Source of the DNA: a virus
Reading direction: 5' to 3' (one strand)
DNA length: 20,280 nucleotides
IMG/VR virus record: IMGVR_UViG_3300035228_000670
Location: 1-20,280 of that record
The notes under the pieces: model-generated
Seen by the model: only the letters and a program-made list of their open reading frames with translations
What the model was told of the DNA's origin: nothing
The model's database searches: none
Position numbers and translations under genes: made by a program
Shown here: one piece after another, positions 1-8,856 of the stretch
Layout of the letters: the number at the start of each line of letters is the position of its first letter
Position numbering within the stretch: position 1 is the stretch's first letter

Positions 1-3000
1 ACCAGATTGGCAATTGGAGTGTCAATCGTGACAATTGCTTCACCAGTAACAATATTGTCATAAACAAAATTTGTAATATTTACTGTTTGACCATTGTATG
101 TTACTGTACCACCAGAAACATAGGTGTGAACAAATCTAGATGCTCCTAGGTAAATCTTGAATTCAGAACCACCGACAATCAAAGAATCTGCTGCTGCTCT
201 TACAAAATTATGTGTAGACTGGGGTAAGTGCTTGATGGAGTTATTTGTAGCACCAGTAAAGGTGTGGGAAGACTGAGGTAGATGCTGTACAGCGTTTGCA
301 GTTGCACTGATAAAGGTATGTACAGAACCAGAAGCACTTCCACCAGCACCAACATTGATTGTAACGTTGCCAGTCAGTCTCTTGATAGCGTTAGTATTAG
401 CAGTTACAAAAGTATGATCTCCAGTGTAAGAAGAAGCACCAATGTTTACCTCAAAAGTATTTGTAGTTACATTACTGATCTCCAACCAGCGACCAGATGG
501 ATAATCGTATCCAGCACGAGGATAAGACTTAGTAGCAATATTGCCATCTAGAACACATGTATATTCTAAAGAATCATCATCAACTTTAATGTAATCACCA
601 TTAGAGAATCCGTGATTAGCAACCTGGAAGGTAATGACACCAGTTGCTGCAACATATGGCGCGTCGGATGGTGTATGCGAAGTGGTGCTGACATCAGTAA
701 TGGCAATAGACTTACCAGAGAAAGGATCTTGTCCTGAACGTGGATAAGTTTTTTGCTCTACATTACCATCTTGATCACATGTAAAGGTTAATGAATTGTC
801 TGCAAGAACAACGTTTCTACCAACTCCAAGACCATGCTGAGGTCCGAGGTTCAATACTAGATCACCAGTTGCAGCATCATAAGTTGTTCCTGCTAGTGGT
901 TGATAATTTCTGTTAGGTGCAGATACACCAACATTTAGGGTAATTGTTCCCGCTGTTTTATCAACGTCAATAATAGGAATAGAACGACTTGCATAAGGGT
1001 CAATACCAGGACGTGGATATGTCTTAGTAGACTGATTATTATCCATGGTGCAAGTGAATGACAAAGAGTTGTCATCAATGACAATACCTTCACCTATATC
1101 TAGTGTATGAGGACCAATGTCAAGAATCAAATCCCCAGTAGAAGGACTATAAGTTGCGGCACTAGGGGTGAACTCTTGATCAGGTCCAGACTCGCTTACA
1201 TCAATATCAAACGTATTAGTAGTTACGTTAAAGATAGGTAGAGTTTTGCCATATGCAAAGTGGTGTGACTGAGGTGCAGCATGCTCAGTCTTATTACCAT
1301 CCATATCACAGGTAAAGATGATAGAATCATCAGCAATTCTTACACCATCACCATTAGATAGACCATGATTATTAACTGTGAATGTAGAGATGCCCGTTCC
1401 AGGAGCATATGTTACATCAGATGGGGTAAATGTCTGATCAGGTGTTCCGCTAATGTCATATGGGAAAAAGTATTCTTGCTTGAATTGATCATTGACTTTT
1501 GAGACAACTTCATCTGCAATAAAGTCTCTATTATTTCTAATTTGATTTACAGCGTCCTGAAATCTTCTAGCAACAACAGTTGCTTCCGAAAATTTGTTAG
1601 GAGAGTTTAGTAGAGATAGAGTTACAGACTTAGAATAGTTTGTTACCTGTGCAAACTGACCAGGAGCATAATTGTCGTTAGTTAGGGTAGGTGCTTTCTT
1701 TGGAATAACAAAACGTCTGGATCTACCATCAGGGTCTTCGATAACTTTATAGATTCTCTGTTTGCCCATCAAGAATGACAGGTCAGGAGCACTAGTAGAA
1801 AGACCAGAAATTTCAATCTCTTGACCTTCTTTAAAGTCGTGGATGTTGTCTGCTTCTACTAGTGGATTTGTATAGAAGACAATACCACCGAGATCTTCCT
1901 GGACACCATAGTCTCCAAAACCACCAGTTGCTACTTCAGCAGTTCCTTGCTTGGCAAAGTCAATACGAGAAATTGGGAGAACATTAACAGTATCTCTATC
2001 CTCAAATACAACTTCACCTTCAGCTCTAATTGATAGAATGTCAGTTGTGACAAGAGAGTATGTATCTCTTATGTAAGTAAATACTAGAGTGTCTGGTCCA
2101 TTAGCTACTGCACCAGTATTGTGAATTGGGTTTGTTGGTCCAGATGTACCAGCAGTACTTACGTTATACAGGTAATCTTCTGTCCAAACTTGATCGCCTA
2201 TGGAATATACGGTATTTGGTGCGAATCTTTGAGTGCCCCCACCAGCAAATACTAGAGTTTCACCAGCATCTACTGAACCAGATATTTTTTGAAAATCGAA
2301 CGTACCAGTAATATATGCATTAGGACCAGTCGTTACATTAAAGCTGACTTGTCTAGATCTAACAACACCACCAGCGTTAACACCCCTAAATTCTTGGTTA
2401 GCAGTTAGAGAACTTAAACCTCCATTAGACTGGAATGTTGCTCTAAACAGATCTTCTCCAAAGATCTGGTGACCAATTGGGAATGAAGTATCAAAGTTGC
2501 CATTAACATCATAGTCATATGTAATTCTTTGCTTGTCATCAAAGACCATCGCAAAGTCCCAAGTTGCGACGGAGAAACCATCCGAGTCAATTTGGTCGCG
2601 ATATGTAACACCAGTAACATAGTTTTTGTCACCGAACTTGAATATATGCTTTCTTGGATTGGCAGGACGGATGATAACCAGACGTAGGTTATCCCCAACA
2701 ACAGATGCATCAGGTGGGATTGAAATTGGGTTATCTTCTACATAGTCACCACCAGAGATGATGATAGACTCTTTGATACCAACAGTTTGCCAAGCCAGCT
2801 GACATGCTCTCTTAATAGTTCTGACAGGAGCAACTGCCGAACGACCATCATTCTCGTCATTACCAATTAATTGAGAAACATAGATACGACCACCAACGTC
2901 ATTCGTTGCTAGGTTGAGGACGTATTCTGTTGTTGCAATTTTATCAGACTTATCACCTAGAATTGGTGTGATAGATCTTGGATAAATGCCAGCCTCGCCA

Positions 3001-3782
3001 GTTTCGTTATAGTATACTTCGTTCTCATCAGATACACGGAAACCAACATGCTTAAACTCGATAGTTCCATTGGTCTCAATACCATCAATATGTAAAGGTG
3101 GATTGAGTGGATCATTATCAGTTGTACCAGCAGTTAGAGACTGGTATACGTTAGGACCACGGAAGACGAATGTATTCTTCTGATACAAAGTGTCTGGTGC
3201 CCAAGGAGTACCAGTATTATTGATAAAAGTCTTAAGGTTTGGTGCTCTATATTGAGCGTCTGGAGTAACGAGGTTATCGATATCCAGGTTTAGAATTCGC
3301 GCCGTATCAGAAATGATAGACGTAGACGTTCTAATAGCGCCGTTAATGTCAAGTTCAAAATCAACAGTATCCAGGAACGAGGTTGCAGTCGCTCCAACAC
3401 CATTTCCACCAGTGATACTTACAGCTGGAGCAGAAGTATATCCGTCACCAGGAGAGTCGATAATAACAGATACAACTCTACCTTCAGAAACAACAGCAGA
3501 TGCTAGTGCTTGAACTCCAGTCTGAGACTGGGGAGGTCCTAAAAGAACAGTTGGTTGTGTAGTATATCCACTACCTTGGATATCTACTCTAATAACGTCA
3601 ATTCTACTTCCAGTTCTGTTAATACCAACACGAGGAAGTTTGCTAACAGGATCTAACTGAGTCCTAAGAATTTCAATTTCATTAGAACCCGTTCCACCCC
3701 TGATCGTTAGTTGATCATCACCGATAAAAGCAGGCGCGACCGCCCTAAATTGTTCCCTATCAGAATTTAACTTAAAGCTCAT
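1..3782 (-). CDS. Large modular tail-fibre-like structural protein (partial, C-terminus beyond left edge)
   Basis: An open frame runs from an ATG at 3782 to the left edge (1260 complete codons, no stop), so the C-terminus is missing. An in-frame TAG two codons before the ATG fixes the start. Domains seen in translation: two glycine/tyrosine repeats (GSGYTTQP, GDGYTSAP) near residues 70-120; a carbohydrate-binding-module-like unit at about 194-247; a segment at about 295-395 (GNDENDGRS, then SGGDYVEDNPISIPPDASV) resembling the pectin-lyase-like right-handed beta-helix region of marine phage fibres; a second binding-like unit at about 520-571; four tandem repeats of about 85 residues at 781-1118; then short HTF repeats at 1123-1200. 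A late-promoter-like element precedes the gene. The family looks like the large uncharacterised structural proteins of T4-like cyanophages. A role in the distal tail and receptor contact is inference. No enzymatic motif was recognised. Confidence 0.85.
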   Translation of the reverse strand, partial: MSFKLNSDREQFRAVAPAFIGDDQLTIRGGTGSNEIEILRTQLDPVSKLPRVGINRTGSRIDVIRVDIQGSGYTTQPTVLLGPPQSQTGVQALASAVVSEGRVVSVIIDSPGDGYTSAPAVSITGGNGVGATATSFLDTVDFELDINGAIRTSTSIISDTARILNLDIDNLVTPDAQYRAPNLKTFINNTGTPWAPDTLYQKNTFVFRGPNVYQSLTAGTTDNDPLNPPLHIDGIETNGTIEFKHVGFRVSDENEVYYNETGEAGIYPRSITPILGDKSDKIATTEYVLNLATNDVGGRIYVSQLIGNDENDGRSAVAPVRTIKRACQLAWQTVGIKESIIISGGDYVEDNPISIPPDASVVGDNLRLVIIRPANPRKHIFKFGDKNYVTGVTYRDQIDSDGFSVATWDFAMVFDDKQRITYDYDVNGNFDTSFPIGHQIFGEDLFRATFQSNGGLSSLTANQEFRGVNAGGVVRSRQVSFNVTTGPNAYITGTFDFQKISGSVDAGETLVFAGGGTQRFAPNTVYSIGDQVWTEDYLYNVSTAGTSGPTNPIHNTGAVANGPDTLVFTYIRDTYSLVTTDILSIRAEGEVVFEDRDTVNVLPISRIDFAKQGTAEVATGGFGDYGVQEDLGGIVFYTNPLVEADNIHDFKEGQEIEISGLSTSAPDLSFLMGKQRIYKVIEDPDGRSRRFVIPKKAPTLTNDNYAPGQFAQVTNYSKSVTLSLLNSPNKFSEATVVARRFQDAVNQIRNNRDFIADEVVSKVNDQFKQEYFFPYDISGTPDQTFTPSDVTYAPGTGISTFTVNNHGLSNGDGVRIADDSIIFTCDMDGNKTEHAAPQSHHFAYGKTLPIFNVTTNTFDIDVSESGPDQEFTPSAATYSPSTGDLILDIGPHTLDIGEGIVIDDNSLSFTCTMDNNQSTKTYPRPGIDPYASRSIPIIDVDKTAGTITLNVGVSAPNRNYQPLAGTTYDAATGDLVLNLGPQHGLGVGRNVVLADNSLTFTCDQDGNVEQKTYPRSGQDPFSGKSIAITDVSTTSHTPSDAPYVAATGVITFQVANHGFSNGDYIKVDDDSLEYTCVLDGNIATKSYPRAGYDYPSGRWLEISNVTTNTFEVNIGASSYTGDHTFVTANTNAIKRLTGNVTINVGAGGSASGSVHTFISATANAVQHLPQSSHTFTGATNNSIKHLPQSTHNFVRAAADSLIVGGSEFKIYLGASRFVHTYVSGGTVTYNGQTVNITNFVYDNIVTGEAIVTIDTPIANL
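159..320 (-). repeat. Three 54-base tandem units encoding 18-residue HTF repeats
   Basis: Three in-frame units begin at the His codons at 320, 266 and 212 and are exactly 18 codons apart. The first two read HTF(I/T)xAT(A/N)N(A/S)(V/I)(Q/K)HLPQS; the third keeps only the start (HNFVRAAADSL). A more distant copy (HTFVTANTNAIKRL) starts at 416. The DNA units are similar but not identical. Confidence 0.8.
429..1442 (-). repeat. Four tandem ~85-residue repeats in the left-edge fibre-like protein
   Basis: Four in-frame repeats start at 1442, 1184, 914 and 689 and encode 86, 90, 75 and 87 residues. Each has a TY/PY near position 11-12, then ATG or STG, a stretch rich in GP/NHGL, a D(D/N)S(L/I)xFTC core with one Cys, a KTYPR-type motif (replaced by APQSHHF in the first copy), and a final NVTTNTFD/EV-type strand, which is missing from the third copy. 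The pattern is a known type in marine T4-like phage structural proteins, probably a chain of beta-rich domains. The function is unknown. Confidence 0.85.
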
Positions 3783-4341: not shown

Positions 4342-7300
4342 TTATTTCTTAGTAATTTGGGATACTACAGTAATGTTAACATTGTTTCCGACAGAAATAT
4401 CGGTATTCAAAATAAATGTCAAACGACATTCATTAAATGCATTGAAGTCAAACGAGGTTAGTACCTGTTGACCATTTGTTCTCATATTCGCAATTTCTGT
4501 ATGAAAAATATCTGTACCTTTTGAGAACACTGTATATTTAACGACTTCTTTGTCGCCTGTTGTTATATTATGTGCAATCAACTGGACATCTGCACATTCA
4601 TCTGTTGAAGGATCAAACAAAACTGCTTCGTTCTGGTTGATAGATCCTCGGATTAGAGCAACTTTAGTAGTAGAAACTTTGACATGTGCAAGTTCAAAAT
4701 TTTGTAAAGTCTCGTCAAAGAGTTTGATACCCGTAAATGTTGATGTTCCGAATCCTAAGTTAAAAGTAATGTCTCCAACGTCAGACAATCTGAGCAAAGG
4801 ATCTACTGCCAAACCAGTTGATAGACCAATATCAAAGAATTCTTTAGAACAATGTAAGAATGAAACGTCGGCAGAAGTATTATCTAGAGTAGTTTCATTA
4901 TTATTAAAAGTGAGAAGTGAAAGATTGACTGCTAAAGAATCAGTATTAGTAGACTTTATACTATCAACTAGATCAAATTCTAGGTCATTAGCAGTCAGTC
5001 TAAGTGCTTCGTTATTAGCAGTAACGAAGAACAAAGTGTCTTCATCAGTACCAGGACCAACTTCTGCTTTGATTAGGGTGTCCTGATCAATATCCTTGAC
5101 TCCGCCAAGACCACCCCACTGAATTCCATCGTATCCTTCAAACTGAGAATCATCAGTATTGTATCTAATAGAACCTTGTTCTGGACTACCTTTTTGGTTG
5201 TTATCACCTACAGGGAGTACCAAAGAAGTTGGTGCTATAATTTTTACTTTCTTTCCACTAGAAGGTTCAATTTGAAGATCATTTGTTGTTGTAAGAATAT
5301 TATTATTAGAAAGACGAATCTCATTATTAACAACTAAGTCAGTAAATCCTAGGGGATCAATACGTAGTTCTGAAATTTCTTCAAACGTTAGAGAAGATAC
5401 TGCACTAATATACCACGTTAGTTCTGCAGAACCATTTGTCAATACACCTGTAGTGTGTATCGGTTCGCTACCACTCGTAGCAGTAGTGCCAGCTTGTGTT
5501 ACCTCATAAATGTTATTTCTATACTTGAGGTATTCTCCTAGTGTTACAGGAACGTTTGCTCTCCATTCAGTATAATCAGGTGCTGAGGTATTAGGAGATC
5601 TTACTTTCTTTACATTAACAAACTCTTGATATTCTGGAGTGAATCTAACTGTATTAACATTGTCGTTAATGAACCACAGAGTATTGTCATTAGAACCAAT
5701 AGTTTCTTCTGCAAGAATTGTGGTATTGCCATCTAGGTCTCTAATACCACCAAGAGAAGACCACGAAGTTGTGGAAGCATTATATCCTTCATATTGGTTT
5801 GTTTCGGTATTGTATCTAATAGAACCATCATAAGATACGTTAGGGAGAGGTCTTTGTGAAATATTGCCTGCAGGAATAACCAGTGCAGTTGTGCCAATAA
5901 TTTTAGTTTGATTTGCAGATGCAGGTTCAAAGACGAGATCTTCGCCAGGAACTGTACTAATTACATTATTAGTAATCTCTAGTTTGTCACCAGAGTTAAA
6001 GTTACCAGTTGTCTTAATGGCACCAGAACTAGTAATATTACCAGTTGTATTTTCAATTTGAATTGAAGATCCAATATTGACATTACCATAAGAGAAGTTT
6101 GTAGAAACTCCTGCATTCATCTCAATGATGTCATCGCCATCAGAATCAGATTTAATCATACCAACAACATGAGTGTCGGTAGTTTTAGATGTTGTACTCG
6201 TAAGATCAGTAATCGTACCAGAACCAAATGATAGGGTAGTACCCTGAGAACCTATTGATGTAATCTGACCAGTTTCAACATCTAGAGAAATTACATCTGT
6301 ACTACCAATTGCATTTACTTGGATAGTTCCGCCAGTACCAAATACTTTAGGATTGTTTGCATTATAAGTTAAAACTCCCTCAAAATTATCACTACCACCC
6401 ATATTTGGGTGTACTGTACAATAGTAGTATAAATTTGGTGTGGTTGAAGTGACCTTTAGAGACAGATCATTTGCAGTTCTAACTACGTTATCTGTGAATT
6501 CTGTTCCAATAAAATCAAGAACAGAAGAACCAGAACCTGTTGCTGCAGCATCAAGAGTAATCTGTGTTCCACTATCAACGCTAAGAACTTTAGTGCCTGC
6601 AGGAATAACAGCATTTCCTGATTGAATACTAACTTCCATTCCAGGCAGAATACCTGTGCTGTCGGTTACACCAACTACAGCACTTAAAGAGACATTAGAA
6701 GTTATACCTGTTACAAGTCCTCTACCTGTATCTCCACCTGGAATATCAGATAATGCAAAAATGTGCCCAGTATTTGATGGATCAGATACATCAAAGACAT
6801 ACTTATTACTAAGGAAAATAGTGAAAGAATCGCCAACTACTCCATCTAGAGCAAATCTATTTACATTTGTAGCAGTATCAATTGAATAAGCAGTACCTGA
6901 TCCAATCTGAATAGTTTGTCCAGCAGCAGCACCAACAGATTCAACAATAACTTCAGTAATATTGCCGCCCGAAGTTCCTACAGAAAGAACCTGTGCTTGT
7001 ACAGTACCAGCATCTCCACCGCCAATATCGGCAGTGTCTCCAACAGAGATGGCATTAGAAGGAACAGAAACAGCAAACGTTAATACTTCAACGTTAACAG
7101 TCGTTACTACTTTAGTGATTGGTTGAGTTAGGTCTGTTGCTGAAATTGTAACAACGTCAGCGACATCATATCCAGATCCTCCTTCAAGAACAGTAACCGC
7201 ATCGATAGATCCTAAAGTTTCAAGTTGGAAATTAACTTCTGTAGTTGGACTACCATATGCTGGAGTGAAGTCTAGTACAACTGCACCCGCTAGTGCTGGT

Positions 7301-8856
7301 TGATCACTAAGAGTCAATGTATTTGTAGCAGTATCAATTGCCGTGACAGTAGTTATAACTCCAGCCGCAAGATCGCCCGATCCAGAAACTTTAGTAACAA
7401 CTGCTCCCTGACCAATTGAAGTTGCTTGTGATGCTGATACCTGTACTGCAGTGAAATTGCCACCAGGAGATTCAAAACTAACATTACCAGCTGCTAATGT
7501 ACTAGTTGCTGCAGCACTCACTGTAATAGTAGTTCCAGAAATATTAGTAACAGTTGTTCCTTCTGGGAAAAATCCATTTTCATCAATAACTGTCATTCCC
7601 TGAAGAATTCCAGTAGTAGTAGCAAGATTTGTGATGTCTGTACTACCACTAGTAATATCACCAGTAGTTGCTACAGAACCTAGTAAATCAGTTGATACGT
7701 TATTTGTAGCACCAGGAAGAGTGATGTTATCACCAACAGCATAACCCTGTCCTTTACTAGCAAATTCTAGGTTCTGAGGTATTCCAGGTTGACTAGAAAT
7801 ACTAAATTCAAATCCAGAACCTCCTCCACCACCGAGATTAGCATCGCTTGCTGATATAACATCTAGTTGTTGATAACCTTGACCACTATTTGTGATAGTG
7901 ACAAGATCAATTACACCATCATATGTGATATTGGAAATTGTAAATGCAAACCCACTACCAGCAGCAGCACTGTCTCCAGATAAATCTTGTGCATCTGCAC
8001 TCAATACATCACCAGATACGTATCCATCTCCGTTGTCGGTGATAGTTACATCAGTAACAACACCACTGGTAAGAGTGATATCTGCTGTGATTGGAGTAAC
8101 AACTCCTGTACCACCAGTGAGAGTAACGCCAGCGACTACGCCATCGGGACCAGGATAAGCACTACCACCATTAGTAATACTAGCTGTTACAGTCTGTGCT
8201 CCAAGAATATCAATATCGGCAATTGCACCAGATCCTGAACTATTGATATTAGATATAGGAACGTCAACATATGATCCAGGTTTATATGCAGAACCAGCAT
8301 TCGTAATATTACCTAGAATACCTTCTACTGAAAATGCAATTTCTGCTCCAGTTCCACTACCATCAGTTTCTACTGGAGTAAAGAAAGAACCTTCATTATA
8401 TCCAGTACCAATAGTTGTAAATGTTCCTAAAAACTCAGTTACATCTATATTTAATGTAGCACCAAGACCTGTACCACCAATAACAGGAACGTTGACATAT
8501 GATCCTGAATCATAATTAGATCCAACTGCCGTAACGACAAGACCAGCAGTTGTTAAAATTTTGTTTTGGACATTAATATCTTTAAAAGAAACTACTTGAG
8601 TTTCGCGGAAGTCAACAATACGTTTCTCGCCACTAACTAAACCGATTGCCTTCAGATCTGGTTTAAAGATACCAAGAGTCCCATCGGTATTGAATGCTAA
8701 TGAGGGAACTACTTTAGTTCCATCTCCAAGTTTTAGGTTACCAGTAGATAGGTCACTACCACCAGCAGAAATACTGAAGATCTGTGTGCCGATATCGTTA
8801 ATTTTTACCCTTTGAGTTTCAAAGGTATCTGTTTTGGCTACATTAATTGCTGGCAT
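4342..8856 (-). CDS. Large modular tail-fibre/baseplate-type structural protein (1504 aa) with cupredoxin-like motif
   Basis: Complete frame from ATG 8856 to a TAA at 4344-4342. Residues 1-100 form a conserved-looking head (MPAINVAKTDTFETQRVKIN). Residues 110-570 hold about eight glycine/tyrosine repeats (GSNYDSGSY, GTGYNEGSF, GSAYKPGSY, GDGYVSGD, GQGYAVGD, GSGYDVAD). Residues 398-461 and 716-782 are two copies of a TGxL-PGM / PxGTxV / ITxxAAAT module. Residues about 668-830 carry a cupredoxin-like pattern with His698, Cys813, His816 and Met819. Residues 971-1080 and 1193-1293 are a duplicated GSIRYN / FEGY module, separated by a binding-module-like unit at 1096-1150. The last 180 residues resemble the C-terminal domain common in cyanophage fibre proteins (ending VVSQITKK). 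The start overlaps the 64-residue gene by 14 bases. A virion surface role is likely; the precise position is unknown. Confidence 0.88.
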   Translation of the reverse strand: MPAINVAKTDTFETQRVKINDIGTQIFSISAGGSDLSTGNLKLGDGTKVVPSLAFNTDGTLGIFKPDLKAIGLVSGEKRIVDFRETQVVSFKDINVQNKILTTAGLVVTAVGSNYDSGSYVNVPVIGGTGLGATLNIDVTEFLGTFTTIGTGYNEGSFFTPVETDGSGTGAEIAFSVEGILGNITNAGSAYKPGSYVDVPISNINSSGSGAIADIDILGAQTVTASITNGGSAYPGPDGVVAGVTLTGGTGVVTPITADITLTSGVVTDVTITDNGDGYVSGDVLSADAQDLSGDSAAAGSGFAFTISNITYDGVIDLVTITNSGQGYQQLDVISASDANLGGGGGSGFEFSISSQPGIPQNLEFASKGQGYAVGDNITLPGATNNVSTDLLGSVATTGDITSGSTDITNLATTTGILQGMTVIDENGFFPEGTTVTNISGTTITVSAAATSTLAAGNVSFESPGGNFTAVQVSASQATSIGQGAVVTKVSGSGDLAAGVITTVTAIDTATNTLTLSDQPALAGAVVLDFTPAYGSPTTEVNFQLETLGSIDAVTVLEGGSGYDVADVVTISATDLTQPITKVVTTVNVEVLTFAVSVPSNAISVGDTADIGGGDAGTVQAQVLSVGTSGGNITEVIVESVGAAAGQTIQIGSGTAYSIDTATNVNRFALDGVVGDSFTIFLSNKYVFDVSDPSNTGHIFALSDIPGGDTGRGLVTGITSNVSLSAVVGVTDSTGILPGMEVSIQSGNAVIPAGTKVLSVDSGTQITLDAAATGSGSSVLDFIGTEFTDNVVRTANDLSLKVTSTTPNLYYYCTVHPNMGGSDNFEGVLTYNANNPKVFGTGGTIQVNAIGSTDVISLDVETGQITSIGSQGTTLSFGSGTITDLTSTTSKTTDTHVVGMIKSDSDGDDIIEMNAGVSTNFSYGNVNIGSSIQIENTTGNITSSGAIKTTGNFNSGDKLEITNNVISTVPGEDLVFEPASANQTKIIGTTALVIPAGNISQRPLPNVSYDGSIRYNTETNQYEGYNASTTSWSSLGGIRDLDGNTTILAEETIGSNDNTLWFINDNVNTVRFTPEYQEFVNVKKVRSPNTSAPDYTEWRANVPVTLGEYLKYRNNIYEVTQAGTTATSGSEPIHTTGVLTNGSAELTWYISAVSSLTFEEISELRIDPLGFTDLVVNNEIRLSNNNILTTTNDLQIEPSSGKKVKIIAPTSLVLPVGDNNQKGSPEQGSIRYNTDDSQFEGYDGIQWGGLGGVKDIDQDTLIKAEVGPGTDEDTLFFVTANNEALRLTANDLEFDLVDSIKSTNTDSLAVNLSLLTFNNNETTLDNTSADVSFLHCSKEFFDIGLSTGLAVDPLLRLSDVGDITFNLGFGTSTFTGIKLFDETLQNFELAHVKVSTTKVALIRGSINQNEAVLFDPSTDECADVQLIAHNITTGDKEVVKYTVFSKGTDIFHTEIANMRTNGQQVLTSFDFNAFNECRLTFILNTDISVGNNVNITVVSQITKK
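4978..5946 (-). repeat. Duplicated ~105-residue module flanking a binding-like unit
   Basis: Two paralogous segments of the 1504-residue protein, residues 971-1080 (5946-5617) and 1193-1293 (5280-4978). They share the order EP(A/S)S, (T/V)KIIxxTxLVxPxG, GSIRYNT, (Y/F)EGY, W, LGG(I/V)(R/K)D(L/I)D, T, AE, DxTLxF, (V/A)xR(F/L)T. The pattern is common in marine T4-like phage fibres. The protein copies are clear; the DNA copies are well diverged. Confidence 0.75.
7147..8535 (-). repeat. Array of about eight glycine/tyrosine (GxGYxxG) protein repeats
   Basis: Residues 108-570 of the 1504-residue protein repeat a unit of roughly 35-45 residues: an (N/G)xG(S/T/D/Q)xY core, xxGxY or xxGD, VPxxGG or equivalent, then a beta strand. 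At least eight cores can be counted, with one longer interruption at about 385-545. The units are degenerate at the DNA level. Confidence 0.7.

Follow-up and report, generated by a model that had tools for sequence, protein, structure and literature searches.

A virion structural protein of 1,504 residues (phrog_6005) appears to hold a cupredoxin domain (residues 661 to 830) that is split by an inserted beta module, and four residues of this domain, His698, Cys813, His816, and Met819, would form one type-1-like metal site with copper as the likeliest metal. Judging from sequence and structure models, we give this reading a probability of about 0.7. Our computations show the fold, its interruption by the module, and the joint evolution of the four ligands; binding of a metal by the split domain is likely, and copper is our best guess. 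The protein is encoded on a virus contig from IMG/VR, of which the whole 20,280-base record was analyzed (here called the window) (Table 1).

Genomic context

The minus strand is the coding strand for all main genes of the window, and the closest annotated relatives of the contig are cyanomyoviruses of Synechococcus and Prochlorococcus. The contig is the baseplate/fiber operon of a T4-like cyanomyovirus. Gene order and protein families suggest that the 1,504-residue protein belongs to the baseplate/fiber region, and it may be part of a baseplate-proximal fiber. The adjoining tail fiber (3 to 3782, minus strand) carries repeats that follow the pattern FTCxMDGN...YPRxGxDP and contain a single Cys each.

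Table 1. Features of the split-domain protein and its neighbors in the window
Feature	Position	Strand	Basis or location
1,504-residue virion structural protein, phrog_6005, holding the split domain	4342..8856	-	
Cupredoxin domain, first half, residues 661-711	6724..6876	-	Uninterrupted-domain profile match 661-707, E 6e-10; AF2 model
His698, first proposed metal ligand	6763..6765	-	
Inserted beta module, residues 714-782	6511..6717	-	Insert profile; AF2 model; ortholog alignment
Cupredoxin domain, second half, residues 784-830	6367..6507	-	Uninterrupted-domain profile match 796-824, E 2.5e-5; hhalign
Cys813, proposed metal ligand	6418..6420	-	
His816, proposed metal ligand	6409..6411	-	
Met819, proposed axial ligand; Glu in many orthologs	6400..6402	-	
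Module copy, free-standing, residues 395-462	7471..7674	-	Profile match E 1e-9
Second free-standing module copy, residues 471-531	7264..7446	-	Profile match E 7e-12
175-residue virion protein		-	Baseplate/fiber operon of contig
634-residue T4 gp8-like baseplate wedge protein		-	Baseplate/fiber operon of contig
2,794-residue DUF4815 protein		-	Baseplate/fiber operon of contig
169-residue virion protein		-	Baseplate/fiber operon of contig
Large tail fiber protein, start only within contig		-	

Evidence for a split cupredoxin fold

An earlier reading of the DNA letters (the sequence-only reading) had picked out the same four residues, and each was confirmed at its place in the open reading frame, where they make up the ligand set His...Cys-xn-His-xn-Met. 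The motif C-x2-H-x2-M occurs once in the protein, where Cys (4 residues), His (8 residues), and Met are all scarce; by our rough estimate, the probability of its arising by chance from composition is ~1e-4.

The AF2 model of the split domain was all-beta (pLDDT 90.7), with the His directly preceding a strand and the Cys ending one, and the same arrangement was observed in the AF2 model of one uninterrupted homolog (pLDDT 92.4). When the latter model was searched against the PDB, the top 12 matches were all copper proteins, namely, Cu nitrite reductase (E = 9e-5) and rusticyanin (E = 1.4e-4), which supports the cupredoxin-like fold that had been proposed. The complete split model returned weak cupredoxin matches (AcoP, E = 0.12 to 0.38, ranks 4, 13, and 16), and the insert confounds this search. 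The Greek-key beta sandwich of the plastocyanin/rusticyanin type was thus found directly in the uninterrupted homolog and, for the split domain, through the alignment across the insert, its direct fold match being weak.

That alignment was obtained with hhalign, which matched the split family to the uninterrupted domains with 99.5% probability (E = 4e-23); the gap corresponds to the insert, and all ligands are in register. Profiles built from uninterrupted domains matched the 1,504-residue protein only as two segments flanking the insert (Table 1), as expected if the two stretches are halves of one cupredoxin domain. The sequence profile of the uninterrupted domains, run against the PDB, matched a Cu nitrite reductase with a whole-sequence E of 6e-4; it also matched plastocyanins of cyanobacteria (E = 0.01), in which H and C..H line up with those of the profile.

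A match to a curated Pfam copper-protein family (PF00127 or PF13473) is a usual, but not a defining, criterion for the cupredoxin superfamily. No Pfam model matched the split domain of the window, the copper families included (the PF00127 and PF13473 cutoffs were not reached), and phmmer found no firm match in the PDB for the split-domain segment alone. The copy in phage P-HM2 matched Copper-bind and Cupredoxin_1 (E of ~1.5e-3, below the gathering cutoff). Assignment to the superfamily rests on fold and ligands and not on Pfam.

Uninterrupted homologs were found in pelagiphages (HTVC028P), S-TIM5, P-HM2, a fosmid podovirus, and IMG/VR contigs, so the intact versions for which the sequence-only reading had suggested looking do exist and are common. 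In the Prochlorococcus phage P-HM2, a single protein (PHM2_106) has two cupredoxin-like domains; its depositors noted an Ig V-set domain (PF07686) in it, probably a misreading of a cupredoxin-like fold.

An old insertion of a repeated module

The insert profile recovered the inserted copy with E = 8e-24. Since it also matched residues 395 to 453 (extending to ~462) and 471 to 531, the protein holds three copies of the module. The insert at ~716 to 782 and the copy at ~398 to 461 had been noticed before and were found again, but the earlier count of two fell short by one.

The insert was present in 16 of 16 fully aligned orthologs (the window and 15 isolate orthologs), and a profile built with the insert matched the main domain across the larger ortholog set; the insertion is therefore ancestral. 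The proposal that a module entered the domain with all four ligands kept thus holds for the window protein, but as an old, family-wide trait, judged from sequence comparison, rather than as an event in the present phage.

In fold, though with no clear support from sequence, the inserted module is similar to 8eci, the decoration protein of Arthrobacter phage Bridgette (Foldseek E = 0.01). This was the top fold match of the split-domain model, in an alignment spanning 83 columns, with sequence similarity to the insert region only; a sequence search with the insert profile did not recover 8eci.

Site variants and the putative metal

We analyzed the site in 125 nonredundant ortholog domains (<95% identical). 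The split copy was of the Met type (Cys-xn-His-x2-Met) in 35, of the Glu type (Cys-x2/5/6-His-x2-Glu) in 45, and without a callable site in 45, one of which lies on a contig that ends before the His. Among isolates, S-RSM4 has a Met-type split site, S-PM2 has a Glu-type one, and Syn1 has lost the split site but retains an intact upstream site. The sequence-only reading had made conservation of the H/C/H/M set a test of its proposal. All 107 uninterrupted phage homologs examined have the four residues, but only the 35 Met-type split copies do; across orthologs, the set is kept, changed to Glu, or lost as one unit and is not universal. In the Glu variants (L080, L062, L013, and others), the distant His is retained and the sequence is mostly Cys-x5/6-His-x2-Glu, with a longer Cys-His loop. 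Their Cys/His/His/Glu set resembles that of nitrosocyanin.

These variants bear on which metal would be held. Blue copper sites are known to use either Met or Gln as the axial ligand, and the uninterrupted relatives keep one or the other; the window set is exactly Cys/His/His/Met with amicyanin spacing. Both points argue against an alternative that we consider improbable, though the best of those weighed here, in which the domain holds another metal (Zn, Fe, or Mn) structurally. That alternative draws on the Glu variants, C-x5/6-H-x2-E suggesting a nonblue site, with Glu replacing Met in 45 of the 125 orthologs, mostly together with the longer Cys-His loop, and on the iron that phage tails already carry via HxH motifs (PMC11705849).

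Co-evolution of the four ligands

If the four residues meet in one site, they should be kept and lost together. Wherever Cys813 was present in the 125 orthologs, so were the His698 equivalent (80/80) and the downstream His (81/81); where Cys813 was absent, the His698 equivalent was gone in 32 of 44 and the downstream His in 43 of 44. In a blind mutual-information scan of the complete domain, in which sequences were weighted and the background was corrected for, the four highest-scoring of 17,391 pairs were, in order, H698-H816, C813-M819, H698-C813, and H698-M819, in support of the earlier suggestion that the four residues belong to one site. Variable loop length may inflate the covariation of the H816 and M819 pairs, whereas H698-C813 is unaffected. 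Independent contrasts on a tree from the C-terminal region gave 8.5 contrasts in the same direction to 0 in the opposite direction for Cys versus His698 (P of ~0.004); an earlier set gave about 9:0 for this pair and 10:0 for Cys versus the downstream His (P of ~0.002). Such a pattern is what a single metal site with ligands on either side of the insert would be expected to give.

Because the ligands are lost in concert, we rejected simple decay as the principal cause. The same observation weighs on the idea that the domain is a relic, a cupredoxin-descended fold whose ligands are vestigial and hold nothing in the particle. The absence of the ligands from 45 of 125 orthologs, a close relative included, speaks for a relic, but free decay would scatter the losses, whereas the four ligands are kept or lost together in many independent lineages, no uninterrupted homolog lacks any of them, and most proteins keep one Met/Gln-type site; we regard a relic as unlikely, slightly more so than another metal. 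An immunoglobulin V-set-like domain, in which YYYC would be the Ig Tyr-x-Cys and metal irrelevant, is very improbable: the depositors' PF07686 annotation of the P-HM2 homolog and the weak appearance of antibody domains among phmmer and profile matches favor it, but the window domain showed neither a PF07686 match nor an intradomain Cys pair, leaving Cys813 without a partner for the Ig disulfide, Cys813 covaries with His and Met, and copper proteins outrank every Ig domain in the structural matches of the uninterrupted homolog.

A second, upstream copy of the domain

Many cyanophages have a second, uninterrupted copy of the domain near residue 350 of the same protein. Where present, it is of the Met type, with Gln in one clade and C-x2-H-x4-M (plastocyanin spacing) in a few. 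In L062, L073, and L087, the upstream copy, near residue 400, has Gln instead of Met at the axial position (CSVHPNQ, CSVHPLQ), like sites of the stellacyanin type.

The upstream copy usually bears a Met/Gln-type site where the split copy does not. Counting both copies, 106 of 122 proteins have one such site, 13 have none, and 3 have two. For mutual exclusion between the two copies, the Fisher P was 2e-15, a naive value that ignores kinship; independent contrasts gave about 5:0 in the expected direction, short of significance (median P of 0.06 to 0.125). Since relatedness explains part of the one-site pattern, it is suggestive rather than proven. Five proteins have lost the upstream ligand set, and in all five the split copy keeps a site (three Met, two Glu). 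Seven proteins, including the nearest nonidentical relatives of the window, have no site in either copy; the nearest of these relatives (L027, 68% identical over the C-terminal region) has lost all ligands and has no second copy. Ligand-free orthologs without a second copy imply that the site is dispensable in some lineages.

About one Met/Gln-type site may thus be kept per polypeptide, often in the uninterrupted copy, and where the upstream copy bears it, the split copy would be left to become Cys/His/His/Glu or ligand-free. We suggest only tentatively that selection maintains about one blue-copper-type site per baseplate/fiber subunit in marine tailed phages and that the split copy is freed once the site has moved.

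Comparison with known metal proteins and proposed role

The phage domain shares its all-beta fold with plastocyanin (PF00127), amicyanin, rusticyanin, and the cupredoxin domain of Cu nitrite reductase. Like blue copper proteins, it has a His before one strand and a Cys ending a later strand, followed by His and Met in a loop. The Cys-x2-His-x2-Met spacing of the split domain is that of amicyanin; some upstream phage copies have the Cys-x2-His-x4-Met spacing of plastocyanin, and others have Gln for Met. In contrast to a periplasmic electron carrier, the phage domain is part of a virion protein; it is too divergent for Pfam to detect, an entire beta module separates its first His from its Cys, and many of its orthologs use Glu or have no ligands. 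Uninterrupted domains of marine-phage tail fibers belong to the same family by profile and share the four ligands, but they do not have the module.

In the cupredoxin reading that we prefer, the ~69-residue beta module would occupy the loop after the His-bearing strand, and His698, Cys813, His816, and Met819 would still meet in the fold as one mononuclear type-1-like site. The metal, most likely copper from the ligand set, would be bound on the virion and would hold the loops of an exposed beta domain in place, in a structural or adhesion role, rather than transfer electrons; for a virion protein, such a lock or a contact with the host surface that depends on metal seems more fitting than electron transfer.

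The nearest published parallel is the iron of the T4 gp37 phage tail, which is held by HxH motifs, together with the Trojan-horse idea for marine phages (PMC11705849). Both cases concern a metal (here predicted) in a tail or fiber protein of a marine or T4-like phage. They differ in fold and ligands: the split domain has His/Cys/His/Met in one domain, and no HxH motif of the T4 gp37 type occurs within the 1,504-residue protein. In the open-access literature, the uninterrupted marine-phage domains are nowhere described as cupredoxins, and we found no paper there on cupredoxins in phage virions or on copper sites on phage particles. Fold and site are themselves already known; what appears to be undescribed in that literature is that they occur in virion proteins, where a module splits the fold and the site is exchanged between two copies.

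Since the four residues evolve as one site, copper-type metal sites are probably present on the particles of marine viruses. If the tentative one-site reading holds as well, the virion would amount to a particle of copper protein, and copper could have a part in attachment or in the stability of the particle. If real, such sites would be common, the uninterrupted form being encoded by at least 597 stretches in viral contigs, and would link virus particles to ocean copper chemistry, as has been proposed for iron in tail fibers. The split domain would also be a clear example from nature of a metal-site fold that took up a repeat module and retained its predicted site.

The uninterrupted domain was also observed on contigs filed under Pelagibacteraceae, SAR116, and other marine bacteria or archaea (L186 to L210), which may be prophage or co-sorted phage DNA.
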